This document shows, one piece after another, positions 1 through 32,955 of a DNA stretch of 32,955 nt. Under the pieces are notes generated by a model. It made no database searches, had not been told where the DNA came from, and was given only the letters and a program-made list of their open reading frames with translations. Made by a program: the position numbers and the translations under genes. Source of the stretch: a virus. Every line of letters starts with the position of its first letter. Position 1 is the first letter of the stretch. Location of the stretch: positions 1-32,955 of IMG/VR virus record IMGVR_UViG_3300009177_000026; one strand, written 5' to 3'.

Positions 1-123
1 ACGTCGGTGAGCTGAAACACCAGGTCAGCAGGAATCGGCGTCGCCGCGAGCGACTCGAAATAAGCTTGCCCCTGCTCGAATCCTTCAGATGGCGGAGCGC
101 CCATCGAAATCGCCCACCGCGAA
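1..123. repeat. Direct terminal repeat, left copy (circle junction)
   Basis: These 123 bases are identical to 32833-32955. The copy lies inside one long reading frame that runs uninterrupted across the junction, so this is best read as assembly overlap of a circular molecule of about 32,832 bp. A real physical terminal redundancy cannot be excluded from sequence alone. Confidence 0.95.
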
Positions 124-1547
124 ATCAAGGGATAAGCCGAGGCATTCACACCCGTGGAATACAGGCCGGCCGAGACCGTTCCTATAATCGTTTCCGCCGA
201 CCAGCCGAGGCCCACGCCGGCCGACGTGATGAAGGCGAAAACCATGTTTCCGTCGAGCGGATCCCGAGTATAGAAAATGTAATCGAGCCCGTCGAGGGAA
301 ATGGTCGAGTAGAACCCGCGCGGAAAGGAATCCGGATCCGTCTGAATCAAGCCAAACGGCGTTTCGTCGAAATACACCGGAGCATCCGCCGCCACGAAGC
401 GCACGCAATGAACATTCGGAGCCACCGCGCTATTCGCCAGGTTGTAGGTAAACGCGATCAAATCGTCAGCACTGATAGACGGATAGGACACGAAGGCCGG
501 AGGGTTCGCCGAGCCAAACGGCACAATCACATCCGAGACCGTGAGCGAATCATCGGTATGGATCACCTGATGATATAAAAAGCTTGTTTGCGGAGCCGGA
601 AACGTGCCGGAGAACGCCACGAAAATGCAGTGTATGTTTCCGTCAGAATCCGGAACCATGCCGACCGGTTCCCACTGGTGCGTATCGGCGTCGTCCGTCG
701 TCCCGAGCGCCGTAAGCGAGCCCGCCCAGGTTGCGGCCGTCAGATCGCAAGGAGCTCCGAAAACGCGGTTTGCAACCGGCGTTCCCGAATCGGAGCCGGC
801 CGGAAACATCATCCAAAGCGTGTTATCGACCGCACGGTGAGCCACGCCAAAGCCGCCATTGGAGACGACCGGCAAGTCAGGGAATCGATACGTGAGCGTC
901 GACGAGATCACCGAACCCCAGGTTTCCGTAGACATATCGAACGTCACGGCCGCGATAGTGAAATCCGGAGCCCAAAAGACCGCGTACAGGTTCGCCGAGT
1001 CGACGGCCGAGGCATCGCGGACCACGCCGAAATACTCATAGGTGCTAGGAGGCGGAGACGGAAGGTTGTTATCCGCAATGTCCGGAGCGCCGGCCGCGTC
1101 GACCTCCGCCCACGTCACGCCCTCATCGTCGGACTTATAGGCGCGAAGCTTGAAAGTAGTAACATCCTGCAAAATCTGAAACCGAGTCGTCGCGCCGAAA
1201 TCAAAGGGACCGGCCGGCCCCGGATTGATGACGTTGTTCTCGAAACTGGTAGAAGCTTCCGACGTGATAATTTCCGGAAACTCAATCTCCGGAGCGTCGC
1301 CCGATGTCGACTCCAACAGGACCGCAGCCCAGAAACCCCAGACCAAGGAACCGACCGGCAGAAAAAAGTTGTATTCGATTTTGCCCGAGTCCGGAATAAC
1401 TTGCGACTGCGCATCCGGAACCATCGCATAGCGCGGAGCATGGCACTTACTCAGCTCCAACGGATCGAGCAAAGGCGCAATTGTGGGATTCCACGCCGCA
1501 AAAGCGTCGCGCCAGGAGGAATCAAGAGCCAAGCTGGATAAACTCAT
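1..1547 (-). CDS. Large virion spike/propeller-like protein, 5' part (gene spans the contig junction)
   Basis: The frame starts at ATG 1547 (MSLSSLALDSSW) and stays open to base 1. On the circle it continues to the stop at 32613, giving 588 residues, the longest protein here. The start overlaps the stop of the upstream gene (ATGA at 1544-1547). Residues about 50-460 are rich in beta-strands with repeated Trp/Gly/Asp turns, for example GVTWAEVDAAG, ETWGSVISS and GLGWSAETIIG, resembling the blades of a sialidase- or BNR-like propeller. The C-terminal part (FPGFSLLPAPHPVVGDG onward) resembles the beta-sandwich pattern of its operon neighbours. A receptor-binding or spike role is inferred from position and composition. 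No catalytic motif is recognised. Confidence 0.85.
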   Translation of the reverse strand, partial: MSLSSLALDSSWRDAFAAWNPTIAPLLDPLELSKCHAPRYAMVPDAQSQVIPDSGKIEYNFFLPVGSLVWGFWAAVLLESTSGDAPEIEFPEIITSEASTSFENNVINPGPAGPFDFGATTRFQILQDVTTFKLRAYKSDDEGVTWAEVDAAGAPDIADNNLPSPPPSTYEYFGVVRDASAVDSANLYAVFWAPDFTIAAVTFDMSTETWGSVISSTLTYRFPDLPVVSNGGFGVAHRAVDNTLWMMFPAGSDSGTPVANRVFGAPCDLTAATWAGSLTALGTTDDADTHQWEPVGMVPDSDGNIHCIFVAFSGTFPAPQTSFLYHQVIHTDDSLTVSDVIVPFGSANPPAFVSYPSISADDLIAFTYNLANSAVAPNVHCVRFVAADAPVYFDETPFGLIQTDPDSFPRGFYSTISLDGLDYIFYTRDPLDGNMVFAFITSAGVGLGWSAETIIGTVSAGLYSTGVNASAYPLISRWAISMGAPPSEGFEQGQAYFESLAATPIPADLVFQLTD

Positions 1548-2437
1548 CGTGCGAAAGCTTTGCAGCCCCCAAACCGAAAATAAAGATTCACCGGAGGAGC
1601 GCCGGCCCCATCCTCGCGGTAAACGTCCACGTACAGGCTATGCTCGCGTTGCACGTAAATCTCCGGCGTGTAAAGGCCAGGGAAGAACAGAACGGAATCA
1701 TCATTCGCCGCGCCGGAGGACAGAGGCACCAACGGCCGGCCCTGCCCGAACAAATCGTTAATGTGTATCGGAATATTCGAGTAGGGTTTGAAGACCTCAT
1801 CGACCAGTTGCACGTAGACGCCGGCCCCCTGCCCGAAATTCGGCCCGTCCGTCAGATTGTCGCCGGCGAGAATCGGAGCTCCGAACGGCGACCCGGATTC
1901 AACGCCAGGCGTAAACGGATCACACACGCCAAACCGCACCGCGAAATCCGCGTCCTTTTTTACCCGGAGCTGATTGAAGCGGATAGTATCGGTTCCGCCG
2001 ACGTTCGGCACCACCACCTGATAATCGAACTTCAGCGGAGAGACTTGCGCCGGATACGTCGGAGCCGCAATCCGCCCCGGTTCAAAATACTTGGAGCCAC
2101 GAAACAAAAGCTGCGCGTCGAGAATCGGAGCTCCGGTTTCGTTGCCGATCAAAATGGGAATCGTGCCACCGACCGGATACACCATCTGCGGATAGATGAT
2201 CGATCCGCGCGACGGCCGGAAGTTGGTTCCGAACTGCGCTTGCACGTCCGTCCGGAGCTTCGAGCTCTGCCATTGCCGGCGAGGAGTCTGGAAATTCCAA
2301 CCCGAAACGCCGATGTTGCGCGAGCGGACCAGGCGCAAGGCGAAAGGCGCATCCGTGTCGAGATTGATGGAGAATTCGCCGCCGCCCACCGGAACGGAAG
2401 GAACCCGGATTAAATAGTCCTGATGCCGCTGGATCAT
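1544..2437 (-). CDS. Beta-sandwich virion protein (capsid/spike candidate C)
   Basis: 297 residues from ATG 2437, whose ATG overlaps the stop of the upstream gene (ATGA). A GTG three codons upstream (2446) is a less likely start. There are no membrane segments. It contains two beta-rich halves: residues about 10-110 (LDTDAPFALRLV, then YPVGGTIPILIGNETG) and about 130-295 (FPGLYTPEIYVQREHSLYVDV, ending YFRFGGC). The pattern of a strand, a Pro-containing loop, a Gly-Gly turn and two strands matches the proteins at 2434-3255 and 3252-4277. The LDTDAPF.LR segment parallels LDDDEPFLLH of the upstream gene. Known capsid families cannot be assigned by eye, so a double or single jelly-roll capsid protein is inference. 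Confidence 0.85.
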   Translation of the reverse strand: MIQRHQDYLIRVPSVPVGGGEFSINLDTDAPFALRLVRSRNIGVSGWNFQTPRRQWQSSKLRTDVQAQFGTNFRPSRGSIIYPQMVYPVGGTIPILIGNETGAPILDAQLLFRGSKYFEPGRIAAPTYPAQVSPLKFDYQVVVPNVGGTDTIRFNQLRVKKDADFAVRFGVCDPFTPGVESGSPFGAPILAGDNLTDGPNFGQGAGVYVQLVDEVFKPYSNIPIHINDLFGQGRPLVPLSSGAANDDSVLFFPGLYTPEIYVQREHSLYVDVYREDGAGAPPVNLYFRFGGCKAFAR

Positions 2438-3255
2438 TCCGCGCACTCCTTACGCCGTTTGAACCCGAGCAAAGTTCCCTGAATCAATACCGGCGTCGAC
2501 GCCGAGCCGCCCGCCAGCGCACCCGAGGAGAGCGCCGTTACAAGTTCGGTTTGCGCATCGTCACCCGTCGCATAGGCGAACAGCACCGCGAACGCGGCCG
2601 GCGTGTTATTGATTGCGTTCTGGACATCGGCAAACGTCGACGAAATCGCCGAGGCTCCATCCGTCGCCAACGTCACCGTCACCGCCGAGCCGACCACCCC
2701 GACCGTTAGCGCATGATTCGGCGTCGCGACGTAGGCGAGCTGAATAGTCGCACTGTTGCCGGCCGTGCCATACACCGCCGCGTAGAAGGTGAGCACAGCC
2801 GCCGAGCCCGTCAGCCGGCGAGAAGCCACGCCCGCATTCGTCGAGAGCTGAAAATCGAACAGCAGAGCGCCGCCCGCGTCGCAGAGCACGGCCGGTTCAA
2901 CAGGAAAGCCGAATCCGTTGATACTGTCAAATCCGGATTGACAGTTCGCGCCGAGCGCGAGCACCAGGTCTTCCGAAAGCGGATTGCCCCGCGTATCCCA
3001 GATTCGACACAGGCCAGGCGTCGCGCCGTTCTCGACCCCGAGCGCGGTTCCAATTTGCGGAAACACAATCGCATGGAGCAAAAACGGTTCGTCGTCGTCG
3101 AGCTGGTGAGGAAGTTGGCGAACCATGACCCCATCGCCCGGTATCGTGAACTCGAAATCGACCTCATAGGGAATGTCCCTGTAGCCGGCCGGCGTCGCGT
3201 AAGCGAACTGCGGTTTATAGAGCTGCTTAGGATCCTCGCAGAAATAAGGCGTCAA
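2434..3255 (-). CDS. Beta-sandwich virion protein with inserted domain (candidate B)
   Basis: 273 residues. The start is a TTG at 3255 that overlaps the upstream stop (TTGA). The next Met lies far inside the conserved region, so TTG is preferred. Residues about 17-165 form a beta-rich domain opening with TPAGYRDIPYEVDFEFTIPG, which parallels TPAGYSDEAFTFF in the 341-residue neighbour, followed by CRIWDTRGNPLSEDLVL. Residues about 165-255 look like an inserted module (GTAGNSATIQLAY, then VTVTLATDGASAISST and ADVQNAIN) of a kind common in phage surface proteins. The outer fold then resumes in its last strand (VLIQGTLLGFKRRKE). It is probably a capsid or decoration component. Function is inferred from paralogy and operon position. 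Confidence 0.85.
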   Translation of the reverse strand: MTPYFCEDPKQLYKPQFAYATPAGYRDIPYEVDFEFTIPGDGVMVRQLPHQLDDDEPFLLHAIVFPQIGTALGVENGATPGLCRIWDTRGNPLSEDLVLALGANCQSGFDSINGFGFPVEPAVLCDAGGALLFDFQLSTNAGVASRRLTGSAAVLTFYAAVYGTAGNSATIQLAYVATPNHALTVGVVGSAVTVTLATDGASAISSTFADVQNAINNTPAAFAVLFAYATGDDAQTELVTALSSGALAGGSASTPVLIQGTLLGFKRRKECAE

Positions 3256-4277
3256 ACTTTCCTCCGTTTCACCGCATCGAATTCGATTTGCGCTGTGATG
3301 AGTCCGGAGCCCGCAGCCAGAATGTTCGCCACGTCGAGGATGATGCGTCGACCACGGCCGCGCACAACCAAGGAAGGGAACATTGGGAACCAGGTATTGA
3401 ACGACGCGAAAGGGATAAGATCGCCGCCCGTCACCGAATACCCGGAAGGGTCTCGAAGTTGGACGACCGGAATTCCGCTCGCGGATCCGGAGTAAGTCGT
3501 CAGCACGCGGAAGCGCCGCACCACCGTATCATCCGCGCCTTGCACAATGATCGCGTTATCGTAGCTCGAAGCGCCCGGAGCCACCGAGATCGCATCCGAA
3601 AAGAAAGTAAACGCCTCATCGCTATAGCCGGCCGGCGTTTCCGGCGTGCATTGATTGCCTAGCAGGAACTCCGGAGCCATGATGTTTTGATTCGGCCCGC
3701 ATAAGAGCCGATCCCGAGACCGCAAAGCGGCTATCGGATTTTCCATCATTTCGAGTTTGCCCGGCGTTCGCGCCGGCGTCGAGTATCCGACGATGCAGGA
3801 GCCCGCGTTTGCCGCCCGAGCTGCGTTCGCATCCGTTTCGTTGATCCAGTAGCGAAGCACACCCCAGAACTCTAAATCTGTGTCACCCTCAGCCCCGCTC
3901 ACCTCGACCCCGATGCGCCCGCCCGCGTCGACCGCAATGGGTTCATTGAGCGTATACATATTGCCGCCGCGACCGGCCGGAGCTCCGAACGGCGACGCGT
4001 TCACCGGAAGCGGATTTTGGGTGAGAAACCGGCCGTTCGGCCACTTGATTTTCACCTTGGTATCGTTTTGCATCACGACACCTTTGCAGAAAAACACCGT
4101 GCGTTCGTTGTTCGCGACGCGCCCCTGAGTCGGACCCGCGACCGAGCCCGCCGCTACGCTTCCCTGATAGGGAATGATGTAGCTCAAATCGATATGGCGC
4201 AACCCCGGAGGCGGAACCGGCCGGCCGCACGAATTCAGAACGAAATCCGCTTGCGTCAATAGTTCAAACTGTGGCAA
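3252..4277 (-). CDS. Internally duplicated beta-sandwich protein (major capsid candidate A)
   Basis: 341 residues. The start is TTG at 4277, chosen because a strong GGAGG ribosome site sits 8 nt upstream and no ATG is suitably placed. The protein has two similar halves. Residues 30-146 contain KIKWPNGRFLTQ, then NEPIAVDAGGRIGVEV, then LEFWGVLRYW. Residues 222-338 contain QLRDPSGYSVTG, then FPSLVVRGRGRRIILDV, then ITAQIEFDAV. This looks like two jelly-roll-type domains in one chain, the layout of double jelly-roll capsid proteins. The second half shares TPAGY.D with the N-terminus of the next gene. There is no membrane segment or signal peptide. Capsid function is inference. A fibre head or spike is the alternative. 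Confidence 0.87.
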   Translation of the reverse strand: MPQFELLTQADFVLNSCGRPVPPPGLRHIDLSYIIPYQGSVAAGSVAGPTQGRVANNERTVFFCKGVVMQNDTKVKIKWPNGRFLTQNPLPVNASPFGAPAGRGGNMYTLNEPIAVDAGGRIGVEVSGAEGDTDLEFWGVLRYWINETDANAARAANAGSCIVGYSTPARTPGKLEMMENPIAALRSRDRLLCGPNQNIMAPEFLLGNQCTPETPAGYSDEAFTFFSDAISVAPGASSYDNAIIVQGADDTVVRRFRVLTTYSGSASGIPVVQLRDPSGYSVTGGDLIPFASFNTWFPMFPSLVVRGRGRRIILDVANILAAGSGLITAQIEFDAVKRRKV

Positions 4278-4281
4278 CCGC

Positions 4282-5076
4282 TTACCTCCGCCCGTTTTTC
4301 GTTTTTGCTATTTCAAGCGCCGCCCACACCGAGAACGCCAGCAGGCCGACGCTACCCCAGAACACGTTTGCCGAAAGGCCATCCGTATCGACGACGCCGG
4401 CGACGCCCGACGCCTGCCACGGATAAAGGTTCGGACTCCCGAGGTAAGGCGCGTTCGGATTCGCCGCCGCATCCGGATACAGATTTTGATTGCCCGCCCA
4501 CCCTGCCATTGAGCACGCCCGGAGCTGCTCCGGAGAAACTTGCGCCTGCTGCACGCATCCGGAACGGAGATCCGCGCAGATATTATCCGTGCGGCAGCTC
4601 GCCGGCGTCGGTCGAGCGACGGCCGCAGGAGGCGGAGGAGGCGGAGGAGGCGGAGGCGGAGGCGCAACCACGACCGGAGGCGGAGCCAGAGGCCGAGTCG
4701 GAGCACCCTTTACAACCGGCCGCTCAATCGGAAAGACCGTCTGTAGCGGCAGAATCTTAGGAGCGCAAGGAAGCGAACCCGCAGCGCCGGCAGCGCCGGC
4801 CGATCCGCCGCCAGGCGAACCAGGCGAACCCGAGCCGGAACCGGAGCCGGCCGCGCCACCACCCACCGCGAACGGTGAGTAAGGCGAGACAGCCCCCGGA
4901 ACCTGCCCGATACTGTTTCCCCCAAGGCGAGTTATCAATGAGTCCAGGGTTTTGTTACCGTTCACGAACGACCCGGCAACCACCGACACGCGCCGATCCT
5001 GAGCCGCGATCCGCTCCGGACTCATCGGCGTTGCGCTATTCGGTTCAGTGCAGGCAGCAGCAAACGGAACGTACAT
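4282..5076 (-). CDS. Pro/Gly-rich tail-anchored virion protein
   Basis: 264 residues from ATG 5076 (MYVPFAAACTEPNS), with AGGGTG about 9 nt upstream. A GTG at 5148 would add a poorly supported extension. The order is a short N-terminal region, a Gly/Ser/Ala linker, an uninterrupted polyproline stretch (DNA 4629-4675 is a CCGCCT-type repeat on the coding strand), a four-Cys segment (CRTDNICADLRSGC...C), and a single C-terminal membrane helix (VFWGSVGLLAFSVWAALEIA) ending in KTKNGRR. The MYV/MYL start and the GRR tail are shared with several operon neighbours. It probably sits in a virion membrane with its extended N-terminal part projecting. It is not recognised as a known family. Confidence 0.85.
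   Translation of the reverse strand: MYVPFAAACTEPNSATPMSPERIAAQDRRVSVVAGSFVNGNKTLDSLITRLGGNSIGQVPGAVSPYSPFAVGGGAAGSGSGSGSPGSPGGGSAGAAGAAGSLPCAPKILPLQTVFPIERPVVKGAPTRPLAPPPVVVAPPPPPPPPPPPPAAVARPTPASCRTDNICADLRSGCVQQAQVSPEQLRACSMAGWAGNQNLYPDAAANPNAPYLGSPNLYPWQASGVAGVVDTDGLSANVFWGSVGLLAFSVWAALEIAKTKNGRR
4285..4290 (-). promoter_or_regulatory. Strong ribosome-binding site that supports a TTG start
   Basis: On the minus strand this reads CGGAGG, directly before the TAA of the preceding gene and 8 nt before TTG 4277. It is the main reason to accept TTG as the start of the 341-residue protein. Confidence 0.7.
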
Positions 5077-5305
5077 TGTTGATTCACCCTGAAAAGGAAA
5101 CGAGAAGAAAAAAGCCAGTGATTCGAGGCCACCAGGCCCGAGGACCACGTTTCAACGCGTCGGAAACGTCAAACGCTCGACCCCCGGAGCAGATAGCCCC
5201 GAAACACAACCAACCCCCCACGGCGAAGCGGACAACCGAGGACCCGAGGAAGCCAAGGAATCAGGCCCCAACATGCGCCCGCGACGCCGCGAAGGGAAGC
5301 CGGAA
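5077..5305. other. Longest untranslated gap within the virion operon
   Basis: About 230 bp with no convincing gene. On the coding (minus) strand it holds a GC-rich stretch with weak self-complementarity (around GGCC TGGT GGCC), then CTTTTTTCTT about 20 nt before the ribosome site of the next gene. That could be a weak terminator followed by a fresh leader, but no promoter hexamers are clear. Confidence 0.3.
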
Positions 5306-5923
5306 CTACTGTACCGACCGATCCGTGAGACCGTCCAAGAAAACGATCATGTTGCTATCGGCCGTCAGAGTCGGAGCCGCCACACCGCCGCCGCCAAACG
5401 TCAGCGTCATGCTGAACTGTTGAAGCGGAGCGATGTACTTGGCCCAATCGCCGTAACGCCGCATATTCTGCGGAGCCGGAACGCCGAGCGTATACACGCT
5501 CTCGCCCGAATTCTGCGTAACGCCGGTGAGACCCGCGCCGGCCGGGAACATCCACAGGAAGCCCTCGTGAAAGGTCTTCTCGTCGATCTTGAATTCCATG
5601 TAGCACGAATTCAAAATCAAATCGATGTCCGATTTCAGCATGGACGACTGGAAGTAGAATCCAATCGCCATGAGCAGCAGGCAGCGCGGAGGCGGAAACT
5701 GGTTCCCGCGCGTGAGGTTCGTTTGCAGTTTCGTTTTGATCTGACCCGAAACCGCCGGATTCTGCTGACCGATCGGCACCGAGAACGGATTGTAGGTCGC
5801 CTGCAGCGCCGATCCGCTCAACAGTGTGACCGTATCCCAGTACTGCCACGGTCCACGGTCGACCCAATCGCCCATTACGGAATTGGTGTTGCGGCCGCGA
5901 GACTGGTTTTCATCGTAAGCCAT
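5306..5923 (-). CDS. Compact beta-rich virion protein (possible second capsid or vertex protein)
   Basis: 205 residues from ATG 5923, with AGGAG well placed upstream. It is soluble and has no signal peptide. The segments KLQTNLTRGNQFPPPRC, YMEFKIDEKTFHEGFLWMF, PAGAGL and YIAPLQQFSMTLTF alternate as strands, ending in IVFLDGLTDRSVQ. The K.fhxxhhxxfPAGxGL and LDG...R.VQ signatures suggest a single jelly-roll-like fold. The size is too small for a double jelly roll. It lies directly after the basic membrane protein gene and before the tail-anchored Pro-rich gene, so it is an abundant-structural-protein candidate. Minor capsid, penton or lattice roles are all possible. Confidence 0.85.
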   Translation of the reverse strand: MAYDENQSRGRNTNSVMGDWVDRGPWQYWDTVTLLSGSALQATYNPFSVPIGQQNPAVSGQIKTKLQTNLTRGNQFPPPRCLLLMAIGFYFQSSMLKSDIDLILNSCYMEFKIDEKTFHEGFLWMFPAGAGLTGVTQNSGESVYTLGVPAPQNMRRYGDWAKYIAPLQQFSMTLTFGGGGVAAPTLTADSNMIVFLDGLTDRSVQ

Positions 5924-5993: not shown

Positions 5994-6881
5994 CTAGTAA
6001 AGCGTGTCCCGGCCGTTGTAGATGTTTCCGTTTGCGTAGCTACCGACGCCGGCCGGAGAACCGGCAGACGCCGCAGCTGCGGCCGGAGGGAGCATCGGCT
6101 GCCGCCACATGCCCGGAATGTCGATTTCGGCTTTGTTGAAAGGATCAACGAGCCGTTGAGGAGTGACGAACGCCTGAGCCTGATAGTCGCCCATGCCGAG
6201 CTGTGCGACGTACTGACCGAACGGCGTGTAATCGTTGATGAGGCGGAGCACGATTTGCACGGCCGTACCGGAGGCGACGCCCGCCGCCGCCGATGCGTTC
6301 TTGAGAACGCGGCCGGCGAGGAACCACAGCCCCAGGCCCGCCGCGAAGTTGCCGGCGTAACCCATCGCCCCGGTGTTTTTCTCACCGAGAACCATTTGCG
6401 TGAGGAGCTTCGAGCCCAGAGCGCCGGCGATGACGAAAACCGCGTTCGTCACCAACGCCCCGATACCACCGACGCCCGCCCGCCCGGTGTTGTGTCGCCG
6501 AGCCGCGCGACGGCGATGCGCCTGCGACTTGCGAGCTCCAGAATTCTTTCGATGTCCCACTTTGCGAGCAGCCGTTTTTTTGGCCGCAGAGTTGGACTTT
6601 CGTTTCGTCGTAGCCATTTTCTGATGTCCTTTCCGAGTGCCAGGGTTGCCGGCAGTGTGAGCGCGTCGAGTGAATCCAATAATCTCGCCGGTGTTTTTCT
6701 TCACACGCCCGTGGCGAGATGCCGGCGTGTGTTTCTTAGCTGCGCGTTTCGCCGACTTGCGACGAGCGAGCGCCGCCTTCTGAGCCGGCGAACCGAAAAT
6801 AGCGATTTGCTTATCGCTGAGCTTCCGCGCCTTTTTACGGCCCGGATTCACAACGATTCGTTCTCGTGAACTGTTAGCCAT
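5994..6881 (-). CDS. Highly basic DNA-binding-like protein fused to membrane helices
   Basis: 295 residues. Residues 1-135 are packed with Lys/Arg, Ala and Ser (GRKKARKLSDKQ, KKTAARKVGHRKNSGARK, RRRAARRH), like a core or histone-like DNA-condensing segment. Residues about 138-160, 174-191 and 198-215 are hydrophobic helices, followed by a Pro/Ala-rich tail. A protein that both binds nucleic acid and sits in a membrane could tether the genome to an internal virion membrane, which is inference. An internal ATG at 6617 has a strong GGAAAGGA ribosome site 9 nt upstream and would give a 207-residue short form. Two products from one frame are therefore possible. The outer start at 6881 has only a weak ribosome site. 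Confidence 0.85.
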   Translation of the reverse strand: MANSSRERIVVNPGRKKARKLSDKQIAIFGSPAQKAALARRKSAKRAAKKHTPASRHGRVKKNTGEIIGFTRRAHTAGNPGTRKGHQKMATTKRKSNSAAKKTAARKVGHRKNSGARKSQAHRRRAARRHNTGRAGVGGIGALVTNAVFVIAGALGSKLLTQMVLGEKNTGAMGYAGNFAAGLGLWFLAGRVLKNASAAAGVASGTAVQIVLRLINDYTPFGQYVAQLGMGDYQAQAFVTPQRLVDPFNKAEIDIPGMWRQPMLPPAAAAASAGSPAGVGSYANGNIYNGRDTLY

Positions 6882-6996: not shown

Positions 6997-7332
6997 CTAT
7001 CGCGCGTTCGTCGGAGGCCGCTCAACCGAGAATCCGAACGTAATCGCCACCGTTCCGGCCGTGGTCAAAACGACGGTGTTGGCCGTTTTGGAAGCAACGA
7101 AAATCGTTTGCGCGTAGAACGTCGCCGCGCGAGGTTCGAGGCGAACCAGCGGAAAATCGCGGTCGAGATCCGCCTGAGACAGATTCAAATTGTGTTGAAT
7201 CGTGACGTTGGCCGTTGCGCCGTCCGTTGCGATCCGACCCGAGACGAGAGACTTTCCGCGATTCTGCGCCACAGTGGGCGGAGTCGTCGACGGAGCCGCG
7301 TTCGGATAGTAGTAAGTGGGAGTATTCGCCAT
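6997..7332 (-). CDS. Small beta-rich structural protein
   Basis: 111 residues from ATG 7332, with AAAGG upstream. The protein has a short Tyr/Pro/Thr N-terminus, then IQHNLNLSQADLDRDFPLV, IFVASKTANTVVLTT and ITFGFSVERP. The alternating strand pattern and size fit a minor capsid or spike-base protein. It has no Cys, no membrane segment and no catalytic motif. Neighbours on both sides are highly basic proteins, so it is probably made together with virion core components. The family is not recognised. Confidence 0.82.
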   Translation of the reverse strand: MANTPTYYYPNAAPSTTPPTVAQNRGKSLVSGRIATDGATANVTIQHNLNLSQADLDRDFPLVRLEPRAATFYAQTIFVASKTANTVVLTTAGTVAITFGFSVERPPTNAR

Positions 7333-7377: not shown

Positions 7378-8070
7378 CTAACCGTCGATTCCCTCATCCG
7401 GAATCGTGTACCCGCCGCCCGCGAAGGAAATCAGCCGGTTTACGGTGTCATAGATCACCGTTGGAGGACTGGACTTTACGAACTTTGGAGCCCCGTTCAC
7501 GCGGACAGCTTGACGCCGGCCGCTGAAAGATAAATGCTTGCGCTTACCGCGCCGACCAGGATTCCGAACCATGCGCCGCCCGCCGAACTTATGGTTGTAG
7601 ATAGCTTCGCCGCCATCCTCCGGCCGCAAGTGATCTTTAATCGTGTAGTAGTAGGCCCGATGCAGCGTTCCTAAGACTTCGGACTCGTGCGCCGTTTCCG
7701 GATCAATGCCGAAATCTTCGAGATTGACGCCTTGATCGCCGCCTTCTAAAAACAGTTGGTTGCGCCGTTCGTTCGACGACAACACAGCCGGCCCGTTATC
7801 GTCCGCAAAATCCTTGACCGTTACGCGGTAATTGCCCTTTGCCGAGACGATGACCAGTTTTTCGCACTCGCCGAGGCCCCATAGAACCGTGTGCGAGTGA
7901 ATCGGCGTGACAATCTTTAGCCGGCGTTCACTAGGCCGGCCGTGGAATTCCTGATAGGCGAGCTCCGCCGATTCGATCCCGTTGCGTCGACGCGCCACGC
8001 CGGAATTCTTTCTTGAGCGCACCCCGGCCGCGGATTTTTTGCTCTTTGCCTTAATCGCTTTTTTCGCCAT
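7378..8070 (-). CDS. Basic-ended virion/core protein
   Basis: 230 residues from ATG 8070. Residues 1-30 are Lys/Arg-rich (MAKKAIKAKSKKSAAG...RSRKNSGVARRR) and resemble the basic segment of the 295-residue protein (both contain RKNSG). Residues about 35-150 form a mixed alpha/beta domain (RLKIVTPIHSHTVLWGLGECEKL, then NYRVTVKDFADD). Residues about 165-195 are again basic (RRMVRNPGRRGKRKH). It is soluble. Two positively charged patches around a folded domain suggest nucleic-acid binding inside the particle. It could be a core protein or a regulator. No named family is recognised. Confidence 0.82.
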   Translation of the reverse strand: MAKKAIKAKSKKSAAGVRSRKNSGVARRRNGIESAELAYQEFHGRPSERRLKIVTPIHSHTVLWGLGECEKLVIVSAKGNYRVTVKDFADDNGPAVLSSNERRNQLFLEGGDQGVNLEDFGIDPETAHESEVLGTLHRAYYYTIKDHLRPEDGGEAIYNHKFGGRRMVRNPGRRGKRKHLSFSGRRQAVRVNGAPKFVKSSPPTVIYDTVNRLISFAGGGYTIPDEGIDG

Positions 8071-8077
8071 CGCGATG

Positions 8078-8467
8078 CTACCGACCCCGCATCAAAAACA
8101 ACCCGGCCGCGCCACCGTAAATCACCCAATTCGGAATAGCCGGAGCCGTGAAGCCGAGCTTTCCCGCGAGCGTCGAAACCAGACTTGTCGACGTGGGCGA
8201 GAAATCCAGGCCCGTCGAGACGTCACCGACGCCATGACCGCCGCAGGTTCCTCCGCAGTGACAATCCCCCGCGCATCCAAGACCAGCCAGGCCCGCCGCA
8301 GCTCGACCGCCCAGGCGCATCGAGCGAGCCGGAGCAAGGAAGTTCGCCGGAGCCTTAAGGCGTCGCGGATCCGCGAACGCGTAAGGCGGAGGGTAGTACA
8401 TCCACGTCCACGGTTTCACCGCGTCATATTCACCGAGACCAGCCGGCCGCGTCGACATATAAGCCAT
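8078..8467 (-). CDS. Small Cys/Gly-rich tail-anchored virion protein
   Basis: 129 residues from ATG 8467 (MAYMSTRPAGLGE). Two Gly-Leu-Gly motifs are present: PAGLGE near residue 10 and AGLAGLGCAGDCHCGGTC near residue 60. The second leads into a four-Cys cluster. The C-terminus is a membrane helix (IPNWVIYGGAAGLFLM) ending RGR. The opening MAYM parallels MGYM of the upstream gene, so the two may be distant paralogues. It is likely a virion membrane protein. Cleavage at the GLG motif is speculative. Confidence 0.8.
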   Translation of the reverse strand: MAYMSTRPAGLGEYDAVKPWTWMYYPPPYAFADPRRLKAPANFLAPARSMRLGGRAAAGLAGLGCAGDCHCGGTCGGHGVGDVSTGLDFSPTSTSLVSTLAGKLGFTAPAIPNWVIYGGAAGLFLMRGR

Positions 8468-8908: not shown

Positions 8909-9193
8909 TTAGCGGCCCCCCTCGTCGTCGACCGCCGCCGCCTGCTTGCGACGTTGGGGTTTGCGATCCGGAACCAGGCCAAGCCGCCGCGCCACATCGA
9001 CGGCCGTTAGAGGTTCCCGAGGGAGGCCCATATTCTCTACAACGACCTCCGCCACATCCCCTAAGCCGAGATCCCACGCCCGGCCCCCGCCGAGCTTTCG
9101 AGCCAAAGCTTCCGCACCGCGCAGAAACGCTACGTCGACCCGGCCGGCCGGATCCGCGTTACGAAGTGTCTGCGGTTTCGCCTGAAGTTTCAT
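8909..9193 (-). CDS. Small soluble charged protein in the virion operon
   Basis: 94 residues from ATG 9193, which overlaps the upstream stop (ATGA). It is mostly helical and charged (VDVAFLRGAEALARKLGGG, DVAEVVVENMGLP, VARRLGLVPDRK) and ends in EGGR. No membrane segment or Cys motif is present. It may be a chaperone or internal scaffold for the membrane proteins encoded around it, which is inference from position only. The family is not recognised. Confidence 0.75.
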   Translation of the reverse strand: MKLQAKPQTLRNADPAGRVDVAFLRGAEALARKLGGGRAWDLGLGDVAEVVVENMGLPREPLTAVDVARRLGLVPDRKPQRRKQAAAVDDEGGR

Positions 9194-11084: not shown

Positions 11085-11807
11085 CTAGTCGTCCCCCATC
11101 GCCAGAGCCAGGCCCACCAAGCCGGCCGGAATCACTAACTGCGAAAGCGGCATGCCGAAAACCGTAGTCGTCGGATCGATCCCCACCGAGGAGAGAACCG
11201 TTGAGCCGCCGCCATCGCCCACCACACCCGTATCGTTTGCGATTGGATCCCGATGCACCGTAAACCAATCGCAGCCCGTTCCGGTGGGACACCACGGAGC
11301 CGATCCGCCGCGCACGATTCGTTCCGAAATACAGCGCCGGCCGGCGTCGCCTAGAGCTGGATTGCCGCACATGCGCTGCAATTGGGCGATTACGTCGTCT
11401 ATCAGCCCGAGCGCCGCCAGGCGCGATGCTTCGGTGCGAACCGGTTGCGCCCAATAACGCCGCTCGACCTCTACCAAAGCATCCGCCGCCTGATTCGCTA
11501 TCGCAGTTGCTTGCGTGCAGGTAGGACCACACCCACGATTGAAAACCGGTGTTAATACCGCGATCAGCCCCGCCGCCGCCGCAATGAACGGAGCCGCAGG
11601 CCCCGTAAATGGCGCGACCACCGCCAAGGCTCCAGCCACGCCGCCCGCCACTTTCGAGCCCGTCGAAATCGCAGTAGTAACGCCGAGCGTCGCGCCCGAA
11701 GTCACCCCGAGCGCAATCTGCGTATTTGTAGGAGTCGCCCCCAACCCGGCCAGGCGATAGCGCGAGGAGGAAGAGAAGGCCGGAACGCCATAGGGACGGA
11801 CGTACAT
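11085..11807 (-). CDS. Multi-helix membrane virion protein with N-terminal GLGA
   Basis: 240 residues from ATG 11807 (MYVRPYGVPAF). RYRLAGLGATP lies at residues 16-26. Residues 38-85 are strongly hydrophobic and small-residue-rich (GVAGALAVVAPFTGPAAPFIAAAAGLIAVL), probably two membrane helices or a fusion-peptide-like hairpin. A soluble middle domain has seven Cys (RGCGPTC, RMCG, RRC, WC, GC) and the segment DWFTVHRDPIANDTG. A final hydrophobic stretch (LVIPAGLVGLALAMG) ends in DD rather than the basic tail. It could be a membrane-penetration or entry protein. That role is inference. Confidence 0.85.
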   Translation of the reverse strand: MYVRPYGVPAFSSSSRYRLAGLGATPTNTQIALGVTSGATLGVTTAISTGSKVAGGVAGALAVVAPFTGPAAPFIAAAAGLIAVLTPVFNRGCGPTCTQATAIANQAADALVEVERRYWAQPVRTEASRLAALGLIDDVIAQLQRMCGNPALGDAGRRCISERIVRGGSAPWCPTGTGCDWFTVHRDPIANDTGVVGDGGGSTVLSSVGIDPTTTVFGMPLSQLVIPAGLVGLALAMGDD

Positions 11808-14732: not shown

Positions 14733-15266
14733 ATGGCGCAAAGAATTCTCGTACCCGCCACCTGTAAGGTATGCGGAGAGGTTTTCTACGGCCCGGCCGA
14801 GGGACTCGGAGGCGGACGCCTGATAGTCGGAGAAGACCCGAAGCGCCGCGACAAGCTTTATATGGCGACGCTTATTCAGCACATCGAAGCGAAGCACCCC
14901 GGCGACATCAAGCAGGCCCGAATGCTTGGAGCCGAGTATGCGGGAATGCTCGCACTCGCGATTTTCCAAACCACCGACGAAGGAGTGAACCAGCAGCGCG
15001 ACTATCAGCGATGGAGGGTTCACCAGAATTCGATTGCGCTGCGAGTGACGAATGAGCGCATCGACGCCCGCGTGCAAGAGACGTTCGACCGCGTATTGAA
15101 GCAGCACGAAGAATTCGCAACTGCGTTCAGTTCCGAATTGTCGGAGCTCGCCGAGGCGATGAAAGAGACAATGCGCGTTATGCGCGACGTACTCGAAGAA
15201 GTCGACCGCTACCCTAGTTTGACCGATGAGGAACCCGAATCGGCCGTTTCGACCGTCCAAAACTGA
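14733..15266 (+). CDS. C2H2-like zinc-finger and coiled-coil protein
   Basis: 177 residues from ATG 14733, 4 nt after the preceding stop. Residues 8-50 have CKVCGEVF, then IQHIEAKHPGD, a Cys-x2-Cys and His-x4-His arrangement typical of a small zinc finger. The C-terminal half (about 95-165) is a long amphipathic helix (VQETFDRVLKQHEEFATAF, ELAEAMKETMRVMRDVLEEV) likely to form a coiled coil. It may bind DNA or act as an adaptor with the large protein encoded before it. The family is not recognised. Confidence 0.85.
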   Translation: MAQRILVPATCKVCGEVFYGPAEGLGGGRLIVGEDPKRRDKLYMATLIQHIEAKHPGDIKQARMLGAEYAGMLALAIFQTTDEGVNQQRDYQRWRVHQNSIALRVTNERIDARVQETFDRVLKQHEEFATAFSSELSELAEAMKETMRVMRDVLEEVDRYPSLTDEEPESAVSTVQN

Positions 15267-17640: not shown

Positions 17641-17683
17641 CAAAGAGAGTTTACAGAATGTAATAGAGATACAATGCGCGACT

Positions 17684-17750
17684 GGTTGCGCGTTTCCGCG
17701 CAGTTGGTTGCGCTTGGAGTTTGCGCAACCGGTTGCGCAAACGGTTGCGC
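17684..17750. repeat. GGTTGCGC iteron-like array with a 24-bp perfect palindrome
   Basis: GGTTGCGC occurs at 17684, 17706, 17731 and 17743, and in reverse (GCGCAACC) at 17723. The central pair builds a perfect 24-bp palindrome at 17719-17742 centred on GCGCAACCGGTTGCGC. It differs from the sites inside the initiator-like gene only in the two central bases, so one protein probably binds both. Confidence 0.8.
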
Positions 17751-24216: not shown

Positions 24217-24479
24217 TCGAAATCCTCCTCGTCGGAATCCTCGTCGTCGTCGTCGTCGGAATCCTCGTCGTCGAAATCCTCCTCGTCGGAATCCTCGTCG
24301 TCGTCGGAATCCTCATCGCCGGCCGCGTCCGTCGCCTCTTGATCGAATTCAAACGAGGCGCAATCGCAAAAATCCGCGTCGTCGTCGTCATTCTCTTGCG
24401 CCAGGCACTCGCCCCCGCCGTCATGTTCCATGAACGTATGCCCGCAGGTACACACGTCCGATTCTTCAAAGCTTGCCAT
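24213..24479 (-). CDS. Zinc-binding protein with an extremely acidic repeat tail
   Basis: 88 residues from ATG 24479 (three GTG codons precede it). CTCGHTFMEHDGGGEC and FCDCASFEF provide Cys/His zinc ligands and look like a small phage domain. Residues about 50-88 are almost all Asp/Glu/Ser (repeats of DEDSDEEDF), written in DNA as CTC-GTC and GTC-GTC runs (24218-24315). Such tails mimic DNA charge, so binding to basic host or phage proteins is possible. It overlaps the recombinase gene by 14 bp. Confidence 0.75.
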   Translation of the reverse strand: MASFEESDVCTCGHTFMEHDGGGECLAQENDDDDADFCDCASFEFDQEATDAAGDEDSDDDEDSDEEDFDDEDSDDDDDEDSDEEDFE

Positions 24480-25071
24480 CACCACCACCCCCTGAAATTA
24501 TCCGCTGAACCGTTGACCGCGCAACGCCGAGCTCCGCCGCAATCTTGCGGATTGACGCCCCACTTTCCGCGAGCTTAATCACCGCCGCGCGATCGATCAC
24601 CACCCGAGGCCGGCCGAACTTCTTTCCCTCAAGCCGAGCCCGATCTAACCCGCTCCGGATCCGCGCCCGGAGCGCCGTAGTTTCATACGACGCGAACCAG
24701 GCGAACATGCTCACCAACAAATCGCCCATCGGCCCGACCGTTTGTAGGAAGGGTTCACGAATCGAGCGAAAATCGACGCCGGCCCGCCGTAGCTCCGAAA
24801 TGTAATGCAGCGCCGTTTTGATCCCCTCACGCGTGAGCCGATCCAGCGCCGAGACCAGGACCACATCAAACGCGCCCTTATGGGAATCCCGAAGCAACGA
24901 CTCTAAACCGGCCCGGCCCGCCGATCCGCGCCGGCCGGAAAGCTCGTCGCTATAGGTCTTGACCACCTGCCAGCCCTGCCGAGCCGCGAACTCCGCCAGC
25001 TCCGCCGTCTGATTTTCCAAGTGTTGCCGGCCGTCCGAAGTGCTTACGCGAACATAGAGAGCAGCCCTCAC
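24466..25071 (-). CDS. Small serine recombinase (resolvase/invertase type)
   Basis: 201 residues from ATG 25071 (ATGA overlap). The catalytic domain opens YVRVSTSDG with Arg8 and nucleophile Ser10, continues with DVVLVSALDRLTREG (Asp77-Arg78) and the long E-helix (ETTALRARIRSGLDRARLEG). It is followed by GRPR and a C-terminal helix-turn-helix (AAVIKLAESGASIRKIAAEL, then STVQRII). The size is typical of resolvases and invertases rather than large integrases. In a circular genome it may resolve multimers or act as a plasmid-style partition aid. Integration is not supported by any visible attachment site. Confidence 0.92.
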   Translation of the reverse strand: MRAALYVRVSTSDGRQHLENQTAELAEFAARQGWQVVKTYSDELSGRRGSAGRAGLESLLRDSHKGAFDVVLVSALDRLTREGIKTALHYISELRRAGVDFRSIREPFLQTVGPMGDLLVSMFAWFASYETTALRARIRSGLDRARLEGKKFGRPRVVIDRAAVIKLAESGASIRKIAAELGVARSTVQRIISGGGGDGKL

Positions 25072-25565
25072 GCCGCCTCACGCATCGAAACGCGCAAATG
25101 CTCACCCGCTCGACAGTATCCGAGCAAGCCGGCAATATGAGCGTTAGCCAGGCGAATGCACCCGAACGTAGGCCGGAGAATTCCATTCAAGCCCGGATCC
25201 CCGCCGTGAATCAGCAGCCCGAACCGGCCGGCGTCCTGAGCCTTGAGCGCGTCGCCGGCGACCGCCGTTAAGACGATATAGCCGTAGGGACCGTATTTTC
25301 GCAACGTGTCATGGTCTTTAATCTGACCATCCGCGAAGCGGACCACCGTTCCGACATAATCGCCAAGCGGAGTATCACCGAACGGTTTCAGCGGATCCCG
25401 CGTAGGGTTCCCATGATCGGCCGCGCCTTGATTGTCCGCTTTGCCGAAGCAAGGAAAATGGAGCAAGCGTTGCTCCGGAAGCTTCACACCCTTATCCGGT
25501 TCCGAGATTAGCGACAAATCGCCGTAGCGGTTCCGATCCCGAGGAAGCAAAATCTCAATTCGCAC
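25068..25565 (-). CDS. L,D-transpeptidase-fold (YkuD-like) cell-wall enzyme
   Basis: 165 residues from GTG 25565, with AAAGGGG upstream. His120 in FGLLIHGGDPG and the motif TFGCIRLAN (Cys136, Arg138) match the catalytic signature of the L,D-transpeptidase/YkuD fold (HG...S.GC.R). Such enzymes form or cut peptidoglycan cross-links. There is no signal peptide, so it either acts after lysis or envelope disruption or relies on another export route. It lies in an accessory operon between a HicB-like gene and the recombinase, not next to the virion M23 enzyme. Confidence 0.82.
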   Translation of the reverse strand: MRIEILLPRDRNRYGDLSLISEPDKGVKLPEQRLLHFPCFGKADNQGAADHGNPTRDPLKPFGDTPLGDYVGTVVRFADGQIKDHDTLRKYGPYGYIVLTAVAGDALKAQDAGRFGLLIHGGDPGLNGILRPTFGCIRLANAHIAGLLGYCRAGEHLRVSMREAA

Positions 25566-27155: not shown

Positions 27156-27235
27156 AGTTTTAGGCCATTGACACCGGCCGGAGCCAGGTTCACCGTTCTA
27201 AGTGGAAGGGCTAAGCAATTGCACAGGAGAACCCC

Positions 27236-27418: not shown

Positions 27419-27462
27419 CCGACCCTCGAAAGTGTCGCAAGTGTTAACGCGATTTTAACACC

Positions 27463-28068: not shown

Positions 28069-28117
28069 ACCGATACTCTACGCCAAAACGCGAGCAAAGG
28101 CAGCTAGAATACAAGCC

Positions 28118-28566: not shown

Positions 28567-28575
28567 CGAACACCC

Positions 28576-28926: not shown

Positions 28927-28964
28927 GAGTAGGACCCCAGAAAAAAAAGTACCCGCGGAAATTG

Positions 28965-29486
28965 TTAGCGACCGCCCCGATACGAGTAGGCACGCCGCGA
29001 GAAGTCAGAACGGAACCAGGCCGGAAAGCTCATGATTTTGTCGAAAGCCTCCGCCGAAGCCTGCCCGCCATGCGGTTCGCCGCGCATCACGCGCAGAAGG
29101 TGCGCGTACTCGCCGATCATCTGTTTTTCTTTCGCTTTTGAAATGCCGGCCGGTTTCTTCCGGCGTTTCTTGGACGGGTTAAATTGTTCGGTGAGCACGC
29201 CCCGGCCGCGCCGCCGCAACCATGCGCCCTTGAGCGTATTACACCGCCTGCAAAGCTTCTGAAGATTCGAGCGCCGGCCGTTCGACTCGTCGCCGTCGAT
29301 ATGGTCGACATCCAACGGCCGATTCCCCTTAGGCGGAAGGAAGCAGATAGAACAAATCTCCGGACCATCCGGCCGGTTCTCTTCGGAATTCGCCCGATAC
29401 CGCTTTGCGCGATCCGAGATATCAGAGACCGGTTTGCGAGCTCCGCCGTTCAAAATGATGTCGACGGTACGAGTACCCTTTATCAT
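28965..29486 (-). CDS. HNH endonuclease
   Basis: 173 residues from ATG 29486 (ATGA overlap). The HNH core spans residues 45-86: CSIC (45-48), DVDHIDGDE with catalytic His62, RRSNLQKLCRRCN with Asn74 and Cys79/Cys82. A basic linker (NPSKKRRKKP) and a helical C-terminus (KEKQMIGEYAHLLRVMRG) follow. It lies within the virion/lysis operon after the M23 gene. In tailed phages such a gene sits next to the terminase and aids packaging, but no terminase is visible here. Confidence 0.9.
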   Translation of the reverse strand: MIKGTRTVDIILNGGARKPVSDISDRAKRYRANSEENRPDGPEICSICFLPPKGNRPLDVDHIDGDESNGRRSNLQKLCRRCNTLKGAWLRRRGRGVLTEQFNPSKKRRKKPAGISKAKEKQMIGEYAHLLRVMRGEPHGGQASAEAFDKIMSFPAWFRSDFSRRAYSYRGGR

Positions 29487-30046
29487 CGCCGCCCCCCGAA
29501 AAGTTCGACCGCCACCAGCGCCCCGAGAACATACAGCCCCACCGTCATCGGATCCACGCCGGCCCCCACGTCAGACGTCACGACCTCCGCCGGCGAATCG
29601 AAGCCGAACGGATCCGCGCCACCGGAGCCGGCCCCCGCGCCCAGGACATTCGGCAAGCTTGCATCGAGCAGCATCGAGGACGGATCCACCCATTGACCGT
29701 TTAACGTGACGCCAAAATGCAAATTAGGCCCGCTGACGGTTCCGGAAGCTCCGGAGAGCCCCAACACCTGCCCCGCGCCCACCGATTGACCCACGGCCAC
29801 CGAAATCGCCGACAGATGCGCGTAGAGAGTACCGACCCCCCCGCCGTTGTCGAGCTGGACCGTATTTCCGAAACCGCTCTGCCAGCCGGCGTAAATCACG
29901 ACGCCATCCGCCGCCGCACTCACCGGCGTACCGACCGGAACCGCGTAATCAATCCCCTTATGATCGGTAGACGCGCCGGCCGTAGGCTGGACCCGCGTTC
30001 CGAACGGCGAAGAGATCCGGCCGACCACTGGTAAAGAGAACGCCAT
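29483..30046 (-). CDS. Tail-anchored M23 peptidoglycan endopeptidase
   Basis: 187 residues from ATG 30046. The M23 (LytM-type) domain spans residues 8-125: ISSPFGTRV, His29-x3-Asp33 in DHKGIDYAVPVGTPV, LYAHLSA (His77) and GPNLHFGV (His110), giving the zinc ligands and catalytic His. A Gly/Ala linker leads to a C-terminal membrane helix (MTVGLYVLGALVAVEL) ending FGGRR. That tail is the same as on the virion membrane proteins, so this enzyme is probably anchored in the particle and digests the wall during entry or exit. Confidence 0.9.
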   Translation of the reverse strand: MAFSLPVVGRISSPFGTRVQPTAGASTDHKGIDYAVPVGTPVSAAADGVVIYAGWQSGFGNTVQLDNGGGVGTLYAHLSAISVAVGQSVGAGQVLGLSGASGTVSGPNLHFGVTLNGQWVDPSSMLLDASLPNVLGAGAGSGGADPFGFDSPAEVVTSDVGAGVDPMTVGLYVLGALVAVELFGGRR

Positions 30047-30049
30047 AGC

Positions 30050-30502: not shown

Positions 30503-30505
30503 CGG

Positions 30506-31549: not shown

Positions 31550-31564
31550 TTGAGTGAGAGCCCC

Positions 31565-32062
31565 TTAGGGAGTCGAAACGCGAATCATATTGTCACCGCC
31601 CGCCGCCAGCGGAGTCGGCAGCGAAACCAGAGGCACATCTGTACCATCCGGAGTGAACGGCAGGCCGGCCCAATCGTCATAAGCCGCGACCAGGTTGTAA
31701 GGCCCGACGCCGACGACCTCCGCCCCGTAGAGAATCGCACGCGTGACGGCCGCGCCGGCAGGAACCGCGCCCCAGACGTTGTTAGGAGCCGCCGCCAGCG
31801 AAAGCTTTATGCCGGCGACATCGTTAGCGGCCGGCGTCGTCGGAACGAGCGCAACCAGCGTGAGCACCGGGAAAGTTCCGGTTTTGCCATCGGCCGCGAT
31901 CGCTCCGCCAGGAATGTCGCCTAACACCGAATCCGTCGCCTGATTCGGAGAATATGCGCCCGTCACCAAGGCGAGATAGAACGCACCCCAGGCCGAAGGC
32001 GCCACCGCGTAGGCCCCTGCCACACTCTTTTGTATGTACTTCCAATAAACGAACGAGGCCAC
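31565..32062 (-). CDS. Fibre-attachment/structural protein
   Basis: 165 residues from GTG 32062 (MASFVYWKYIQKSVAGAYAV). The plan KY....G...... WGAFYLALVTGAYSPNQATDSVLGDI, then TDVPLVSLPTPLAAGGDNMI matches small phage proteins that start with a helix and carry a short beta domain ahead of fibre genes. It is located between the 174-residue beta protein and the fibre gene, so it is probably an adaptor or fibre base. Confidence 0.82.
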   Translation of the reverse strand: MASFVYWKYIQKSVAGAYAVAPSAWGAFYLALVTGAYSPNQATDSVLGDIPGGAIAADGKTGTFPVLTLVALVPTTPAANDVAGIKLSLAAAPNNVWGAVPAGAAVTRAILYGAEVVGVGPYNLVAAYDDWAGLPFTPDGTDVPLVSLPTPLAAGGDNMIRVSTP

Positions 32063-32080
32063 GTTTTTGCACTCCCTCTA

Positions 32081-32605
32081 CTAAGCCGACGCTTCCGAAT
32101 TCGGATACAGGAATCCGGAGAGCTTACCGAAGACGAATTGATCCGAGCCGACCACGACGCCGACGTTTCGCACAACCAGTTCGAGTTTGTTCAAGCTCTG
32201 AAATTCGAGCCGCCCCAAAATCGGATACGGCTGCTGCGTCGACCCCATGCGCGTACTTACGGAGGTAAGAAATTCGACGTTCCGATTGCCGCCGCTTTCG
32301 ACCACGCGCAAGGTGTAAAGCAAATTGCCGGAGCCGTCCAGGAAGCCATCCCCCTCGAATTGAAACACGACGCCCAGGAGCGTTACGCGCATCCCTTCCG
32401 GAACCGTCCCAAGGTTCAGAGTCACCGAGGAGCCGATAGCCGGCAGCACCGCCGAGGCAGACGGAAGGAAGTTCTTAGAATTCGGCCCCGGAATCCGCCA
32501 CTGATACGGAAACACCCCAAGCGAGCGCCGCTTACTCGCAAGCGTGCTTTGCGCCGCTTCGATCAAAGCCGGCCCCGGCCGGATCACGCTGTTATTGTTC
32601 GCCAT
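32081..32605 (-). CDS. Single-domain beta-sandwich virion protein
   Basis: 174 residues from ATG 32605. After a helical N-terminus (RPGPALIEAAQSTLASKRRS), residues 45-170 form strands: SSVTLNLGTVPEGMRVTLLG, then LLYTLRVVESGGNRNVEFLT, PILGRLEFQSLNKLELVVRN and SDQFVFGKLSGFLYP. The spacing of the last strands (P..hG.hEF....L.h.V.N) matches the beta-sandwich proteins at 1544-4277, so it looks like a fourth, single-domain relative. It may be a penton, adaptor or minor capsid protein. Confidence 0.84.
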   Translation of the reverse strand: MANNNSVIRPGPALIEAAQSTLASKRRSLGVFPYQWRIPGPNSKNFLPSASAVLPAIGSSVTLNLGTVPEGMRVTLLGVVFQFEGDGFLDGSGNLLYTLRVVESGGNRNVEFLTSVSTRMGSTQQPYPILGRLEFQSLNKLELVVRNVGVVVGSDQFVFGKLSGFLYPNSEASA

Positions 32606-32612
32606 CGCCCCT

Positions 32613-32955
32613 CTACCTCACCGCGCAATCGGCGTGAGCTTCAGCCACACCCAACAGGAGCACGATTTGCGCCCCCGGCGTTCCCCACGCTTCGAGCGTG
32701 AACAGACCATCACCCACGACAGGATGCGGAGCCGGCAGCAAAGAGAAGCCAGGAAACCGCCCCTCCGCCGCGCCATAGGTCTCGACCAGATCGGCCCGCA
32801 CCGGTTCCTGAAAGAATTTATGCTCAAGCGATACGTCGGTGAGCTGAAACACCAGGTCAGCAGGAATCGGCGTCGCCGCGAGCGACTCGAAATAAGCTTG
32901 CCCCTGCTCGAATCCTTCAGATGGCGGAGCGCCCATCGAAATCGCCCACCGCGAA
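32613..32955 (-). CDS. Large virion spike/propeller-like protein, 3' part
   Basis: The last 113 or so residues of the 588-residue protein whose start is at 1547 across the junction. They end ...AEAHADCAVR at TAG 32613, 8 bp before the next gene. This part (LVFQLTDVSLEHKFFQEPVR, GDGLFTLEAWGTPGAQIVLL) is beta-rich and resembles the capsid-candidate fold. The Met at 32936 is internal and is not the start. Confidence 0.85.
   Translation of the reverse strand, partial: SRWAISMGAPPSEGFEQGQAYFESLAATPIPADLVFQLTDVSLEHKFFQEPVRADLVETYGAAEGRFPGFSLLPAPHPVVGDGLFTLEAWGTPGAQIVLLLGVAEAHADCAVR
32833..32955. repeat. Direct terminal repeat, right copy (circle junction)
   Basis: Identical to bases 1-123. See the left copy. 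Confidence 0.95.

Follow-up and report, generated by a model that had tools for sequence, protein, structure and literature searches.

A complete circular genome and its family

The window analysed here is the whole of IMG/VR record IMGVR_UViG_3300009177_000026, 32,955 bases from a circular soil-virus genome, and represents a virus family whose core genes include a candidate single-jelly-roll capsid protein and no recognisable packaging ATPase. The first and last 123 bases of the window are identical, forming an exact direct terminal repeat (second copy at 32833-32955) that reduces the sequence to a 32,832-bp circle. A 588-amino-acid (588-aa) open reading frame (ORF) on the minus strand, which runs from 1547 to 1 and on from 32832 to 32613, stays open through the join. 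As judged from the ORF map and from homologs in the relatives, the 5' part of this junction gene (1-1547) belongs to a protein with the family's domain at both ends and a large insert between them, and in the 3' part (32613-32832) the family's C-terminal domain crosses the join. In relatives, one shorter, contiguous protein matches the N-terminal ~77 and the C-terminal ~81 residues of the junction protein, the latter being the residues that span the join. Since both ends match a single protein, there is evidence for the adjacency at the join that does not depend on the assembly.

Coding sequence makes up ~91% of the circle and is arranged in two divergent blocks. In one, virion-type genes run along the minus strand from 12965 towards position 1 and continue past the join; the other spans 13187 to ~22400 on the plus strand and holds the early-type genes, interrupted by a single minus-strand gene, the Rep-like one. 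A preliminary description of the sequence had taken the contig for a closed and nearly fully coding circle, and the terminal repeat, the junction gene conserved in relatives and the coding share bear it out on both points.

Searches with the capsid gene and with the gene for a protein carrying a GGDQ motif led to 24 further related contigs, 11 of which were added by the GGDQ-protein profile. Exact terminal repeats (20-127 bp) are found in 12 genomes, namely the window and 11 relatives, which range from 33 to 45 kb; the relatives lack the same enzymes as the window. The syntenic core of the complete genomes comprises a transglutaminase, membrane proteins, the GGDQ protein, a basic membrane protein, the capsid protein, paralogous beta-rich proteins and the junction protein, and an opposite-strand core of a 513-aa and a 177-aa protein is likewise common to the complete genomes. 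The most distant member, G024, has no detectable matches to some core proteins. Homologs of the capsid gene were absent from the GenBank phage and plasmid collections, and no description of the family was found in literature searches, whose coverage mostly excluded subscription papers and preprints. One relative is a contig in a Phycisphaerales metagenome-assembled genome; it has its own end repeats and may be mis-binned.

No recognisable packaging motor in the family core

In scans of the window ORFs against Pfam, PHROGs and NCBIfam, no ATPase, terminase, portal, HK97 capsid, polymerase, helicase or primase was found, nor does the AAA_25 profile match in the window. Matches to PHROGs named 'tail length tape measure' were set aside as most likely reflecting cell-wall hydrolase domains such as M23. 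None of the five GK[ST] tripeptides in the curated window genes lies in a P-loop context, and the sole strict Walker A match in the window falls in a beta-rich structural gene (31565-32062). As a control, the same scan was applied to known phages, where it recovered an ATPase in each of PRD1, PM2, P23-77 and SSIP-1 but not in FLiP. The strict Walker A pattern is too narrow, having missed a helicase of G011 (ESFGLGKT) and a candidate in G024 (QTQLSGKT), and therefore every GK[ST] in the window genes was listed and a relaxed motif list was reviewed in the relatives. GK[ST] is conserved in no core family, and the core holds no P-loop.

Profiles for FtsK, DUF87/HerA, Zot and terminase gave zero matches across 15 family genomes. 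In the corresponding controls, FtsK, DUF87 or Zot matched PM2 and P23-77, and FtsK matched SSIP-1 weakly; the PRD1 ATPase also escaped all of the motor profiles, showing that their sensitivity is imperfect. Single-sequence searches with four known ATPases found nothing in the family. Tailed-phage hallmarks are similarly lacking, with no terminase in the 15 genomes and no portal or HK97 family match in the window scans. The family core encodes no recognisable packaging ATPase, and because this absence is common to the family it is not an accident of assembly. The preliminary description had reported no P-loop ATPase, terminase or portal, in agreement with the GK[ST] listing and the profile scans, for which the controls worked. 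Its statement that replication enzymes are also missing stands for polymerase, helicase and primase, but overlooked a Rep-like initiator candidate with origin-type repeats, described below.

The candidate capsid protein and the adjacent basic membrane protein

The most conserved protein of the family is the 205-aa product of 5306-5923 (minus strand), which is 43-68% identical in the first set of relatives and has homologs in 22 contigs including the window. Its AlphaFold model (predicted local distance difference test, pLDDT, 68; predicted template modelling score, pTM, 0.67; most of the core at a pLDDT of 70-90) contains eight main strands and one helix, which we read as a single jelly-roll. 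The best Foldseek matches of the model in the PDB are mostly virus jelly-roll capsids, including those of plant viruses, and among them are the capsid proteins VP4 and VP10 of Sulfolobus polyhedral virus 1 (SPV1, Portogloboviridae), with probabilities of 0.96-0.97 and E-values of 0.005-0.015. In BFVD the best match is an unnamed viral protein of 211 aa (E 6.6e-5), the same length as gp46 of the phage SSIP-1. The gene product is, on the strength of this model, a candidate major capsid protein of the single-jelly-roll type. Judged on this 205-aa candidate alone, which models as one jelly-roll, the double jelly-roll of Varidnaviria is absent. A second, shorter capsid-like ORF (E 5e-20) is seen in one relative (G005, 32258-32749, minus strand).

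The capsid gene is immediately preceded, in the same orientation, by the gene for a 295-aa basic membrane protein (5994-6881) with a KR-rich N-terminal half, a hydrophobic C-terminal domain and a net charge of +41, by far the most basic credible gene product of the window. This arrangement recurs in all 22 contigs in which both genes are seen, with a net charge of +30 to +62 in 21 contigs and of +14 in G024. Synteny, charge and alignment make this protein a candidate DNA-condensing virion component. In PM2 and P23-77 an ATPase gene is close to the capsid genes; here, the DNA-condensing candidate occupies that place. As a matter of arithmetic, 65,664 phosphates at +41 per copy would require ~1,600 copies for full neutralisation, a number that would be plausible for a T=43-49 shell.

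Relationship to known viruses

A sequence link to a known virus is provided by the transglutaminase-like core protein (11808-12965, minus strand), which carries a C-terminal hydrophobic segment. Compared with 50,697 phage records it gave one match, gp34 of SSIP-1, which is annotated as a structural protein (E 0.02 for the single sequence), and the family profile matches gp34 in the SSIP-1 proteome with an E-value of 5e-13. The two proteins share the same order of parts: transglutaminase domain, glycine-rich stretch, C-terminal hydrophobic segment. SSIP-1 also resembles the window in its circular double-stranded DNA (dsDNA) genome of similar size (43.8 kb) and in possessing a serine recombinase. 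It has been reported to be tailless and membrane-containing, with a PRD1-adenovirus-type architecture and two major capsid protein types (PMC6356626), is listed elsewhere as T=49 and 'single jelly roll?' (PMC6260650), and has been grouped with the two-capsid-protein viruses (PMC6356626, PMC6260650, PMC4958249). The probable capsid locus of SSIP-1 consists of two tandem genes of 210-211 aa, where the window has one; the two SSIP-1 products, gp45 and gp46, are taken here as the capsid proteins by length and position. The SSIP-1 virion ATPase, gp40, is RadA-like and has no homolog in the window. In sequence, gp40 (L054:24775-25737) resembles RadA/AAA_25, its FtsK match being only marginal.

SPV1 was compared through its capsid structure and its published description. 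Its single-jelly-roll capsid is accompanied by no packaging ATPase (PMC8812541), and its circular dsDNA genome, which encodes many small and DNA-binding proteins and no polymerase, forms a membrane-enclosed nucleoprotein core (PMC8459092). The window shares with SPV1 the absence of the ATPase and, according to the model, the jelly-roll capsid; the two differ in genome size (~20 kb for SPV1 versus 32.8 kb for the window and 33-45 kb for the family), and the SPV1 host is a hyperthermophilic archaeon. The Singelaviria/Helvetiavirae (P23-77 and the sphaerolipoviruses) are likewise tailless, with single-jelly-roll capsid proteins and an internal membrane (PMC12714852, PMC4958249, PMC12643093). However, Helvetiavirae have two major capsid proteins, encoded by adjacent genes, and an FtsK-like packaging ATPase; the ATPase is lacking in the window. 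One conserved jelly-roll gene is seen in the window, with three paralogous beta-rich genes downstream. A packaging ATPase is also missing from two other tailless groups, FLiP (Finnlakeviridae) and the Odin group (PMC5894146, PMC6260650), but these have a double jelly-roll capsid protein and genomes of 7-11 kb (9 kb for FLiP, which contains single-stranded DNA); their authors set them apart from larger dsDNA viruses, in which packaging uses ATP (PMC5894146).

A Rep-like gene with origin-type repeats

Within the early-type block, the family alignment identifies a 400-aa candidate Rep-like initiator (16136-17338, minus strand) with a winged-helix-type N-terminal domain and a conserved SEGLFLxTVPEAL motif; winged-helix Pfam matches were obtained in one of eight members of this protein family. 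Upstream of the gene, at 17675-17750, a repeat search located four origin-type palindromes with the sequence GCGCAACCGGTTGCGC or a variant of it, and two further palindromes lie inside the gene (16764-16780 and 16863-16879). In G001 and G006, arrays of GTGCAACCGGTTGCAC are found upstream of their Rep-like genes. The combination of palindrome array and Rep-like gene resembles a plasmid-type origin, for which it is a candidate.

A proposed scheme of packaging without a motor

We regard the window as the complete genome of an undescribed, motor-less family of tailless bacteriophages near SSIP-1 and SPV1, with a larger genome than that of SPV1. Our cautious preference is for a tailless, probably membrane-containing icosahedral phage whose shell assembles around membrane-bound, condensed DNA. 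In such a scheme, replication would be plasmid-like, initiated from the Rep-like protein and the repeat array and carried out by the host replisome. The basic tails of the capsid-adjacent membrane protein, together with other membrane-anchored virion proteins, would compact the circular dsDNA on a patch of membrane, and the resulting complex would then be enclosed by a single-jelly-roll shell assembling around it. No motor is needed if the shell assembles around DNA that is already condensed. By analogy, SPV1, with its jelly-roll shell, internal membrane, nucleoprotein core and lack of an ATPase, shows that a particle of this kind can exist. The preliminary description had proposed a tailless group, which fits the jelly-roll capsid model, the lack of tail, portal and terminase genes and the transglutaminase link to the tailless SSIP-1. 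Its suggestion of an unusual or host-dependent packaging scheme follows from the family-wide absence of a motor, although this is a step that we infer rather than observe.

Several points weigh against motor-free assembly around condensed DNA. The capsid model is of medium confidence only, and the E-values of its PDB matches exceed 0.001. Profile comparison with hhalign revealed no detectable similarity between the capsid candidate and SSIP-1 gp45 or gp46. Among known dsDNA relatives, those that do without a motor are smaller in genome size, at 7-20 kb, and the particle, its membrane, its DNA binding and its bacterial host are predictions. In addition, the distant member G024 encodes a HerA-like candidate ATPase, recognised by motif, and the ancestor may therefore have had a motor. 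That a dsDNA family of 33-45 kb fills an icosahedral particle by membrane condensation and shell closure with no packaging ATPase of any kind, viral or host, is a bolder and more tentative proposition, which we hold to be somewhat short of an even chance.

Tailless dsDNA phages as a rule have a packaging ATPase. The reported exceptions (SPV1, FLiP and the Odin group) are small, and it has been suggested that they are relics of a pre-motor state. What is new here is a genome larger than those of the known ATPase-less jelly-roll viruses (20 kb for SPV1, 9 kb for FLiP and 7-11 kb for the Odin group). A bacterial single-jelly-roll family of 33-45 kb without a motor would represent either the pre-motor state in much larger genomes or an evolutionary loss of the motor, and under the loss scenario the distant member G024 may have kept it. 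If the proposed scheme is correct, motor-free assembly, so far reported in such viruses for genomes of ~20 kb or less, would extend to genomes of tailed-phage size. The orphan phage SSIP-1 gains relatives by sequence, and motor-free packaging, including the question of whether a jelly-roll virus of this size assembles around its own DNA, becomes directly testable.

Alternative explanations

The main rival is a tailless virus packaged by a host machine, either an FtsK/HerA-type translocase or a replisome that pushes the DNA in during one-way replication; we consider this possible but unlikely. The family has 33-45 kb to package and no viral motor, and the Rep-like gene and origin-type repeats of the window accord with this explanation. 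The capsid-coding strand, moreover, is G- and T-rich at fourfold-degenerate sites in both gene orientations in the window and in six relatives (G006, G011, G012, G018, G022 and G023), the skews on this strand of the window being +0.20/+0.25 for GC and -0.47/-0.40 for AT. Such asymmetry indicates one-way replication with one strand exposed. However, it is weak or absent in G004, G005, G007, G009 and G013. As all of these genomes have the virion genes in common, a feature that varies among them is not linked to packaging. Neither was a viral protein with a known host-motor recruiting motif found. A virion containing single-stranded DNA was rejected as the cause of the asymmetry on the grounds of the same variation. 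The presence of the asymmetry in only some relatives raises the question of whether two replication modes exist within one virus family.

A virus-encoded packaging ATPase that has diverged beyond recognition, as the preliminary description had also suggested, is improbable. Many core genes have no known fold, and G024 illustrates that the wider group can carry such an enzyme: its 742-aa P-loop protein (2271-4499) displays the HerA-like motifs GQTQLSGKTT, VPEAQD and SQ, was recognised by no profile and was read by eye. Should this HerA reading hold, the main clade may have lost its motor, or G024 may have acquired one. Yet the 742-aa protein has no homolog in the other family genomes, the profile searches and those with the four ATPases were empty, and, as described above, no core family conserves GK[ST]. 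The largest conserved non-virion gene (13187-14728, plus strand) was examined as a possible diverged P-loop protein and rejected. Alignment and an AlphaFold model divide its 513-aa product into a small beta-alpha N-terminal domain, a disordered linker and a helical C-terminal domain; this is not a P-loop fold, and no credible P-loop ATPase appears among its fold matches. Set against these results, the diverged-ATPase suggestion finds no support.

A satellite or accessory replicon packaged by a tailed helper phage is more doubtful still. This idea draws on G008, an 85,924-bp contig in which a family virus is joined to a terminase-bearing tailed phage, with accessory genes shared between the halves, and on the resemblance of the window structural gene at 31565-32062 to one on the tailed-phage part. 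However, the tailed-phage part has a copy of a 316-bp repeat (95.6% identical) at either end, a pattern that a mis-join would produce. The family also has a capsid-type protein and an extensive set of virion genes of its own, and eleven other relatives with terminal repeats stand alone. The G008 terminase was accordingly dismissed as a family motor, being located in the tailed-phage half joined at the repeat. The accessory stretches common to the two halves are 74-95% identical at the DNA level, suggesting a common host and gene exchange. Many dispersed repeats of 30-60 bp, with ~90% identity or more, occur around the genomes of G007 and G008.

Finally, an assembly or annotation artefact, in which the circle is missing a stretch with the absent genes, is barely credible, for although the window is a metagenomic contig, the same genes are lacking from 12 genomes with terminal repeats, and relatives conserve the gene that spans the join.

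Other genes of the window and its relatives

The remaining virion-type genes of the window all lie on the minus strand. Between the transglutaminase gene and the basic membrane protein gene are those for a core membrane-type protein with homologs in nearly all of the complete genomes compared (11085-11807), a small core protein (8909-9193; homologs in nine of the ten first-set genomes), a second small core protein with a G/C motif and a C-terminal hydrophobic segment (8078-8467; all ten), the GGDQ protein (7378-8070), in which alignment reveals invariant GGDQ, HE, YFTxKxHL and DGGxA motifs, and a third small core protein with family homologs (6997-7332), whose gene separates that of the GGDQ protein from that of the basic membrane protein. 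Downstream of the capsid gene, the ORF map and homologs place a proline-rich protein with a C-terminal hydrophobic segment (4282-5148). It is followed by three paralogous beta-rich structural proteins (3252-4277, 2434-3255 and 1544-2446), whose profiles match each other's family members, the third being supported also by alignment. A core structural protein with family homologs is encoded at 32081-32605. The insert of the window junction protein amounts to ~430 beta-rich residues within a family domain of ~160 aa, and is a candidate receptor-binding insertion in a virion protein.

On the plus strand, the 177-aa core protein (14733-15266; family homologs) combines a CxxC...HxxxxHP zinc-finger-like motif with a coiled coil. 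Enzymes recognised by Pfam, all on the minus strand, are a serine recombinase/resolvase (24466-25071; Resolvase, E 1.9e-36), an M23 peptidase that would act as a cell-wall hydrolase (29483-30046; E 2.7e-32) and an HNH endonuclease (28965-29486; E 5.3e-5), the window containing more than one HNH protein; an L,D-transpeptidase-like protein (25068-25565) matches YkuD at E 0.0012, below the family cut-off. Among the relatives, SNF2-like helicases occur in G004, G005 and G011, with fused or adjoining methyltransferases, and G024 encodes a DnaB-type helicase with a degenerate Walker A motif (L096:14490-16031).

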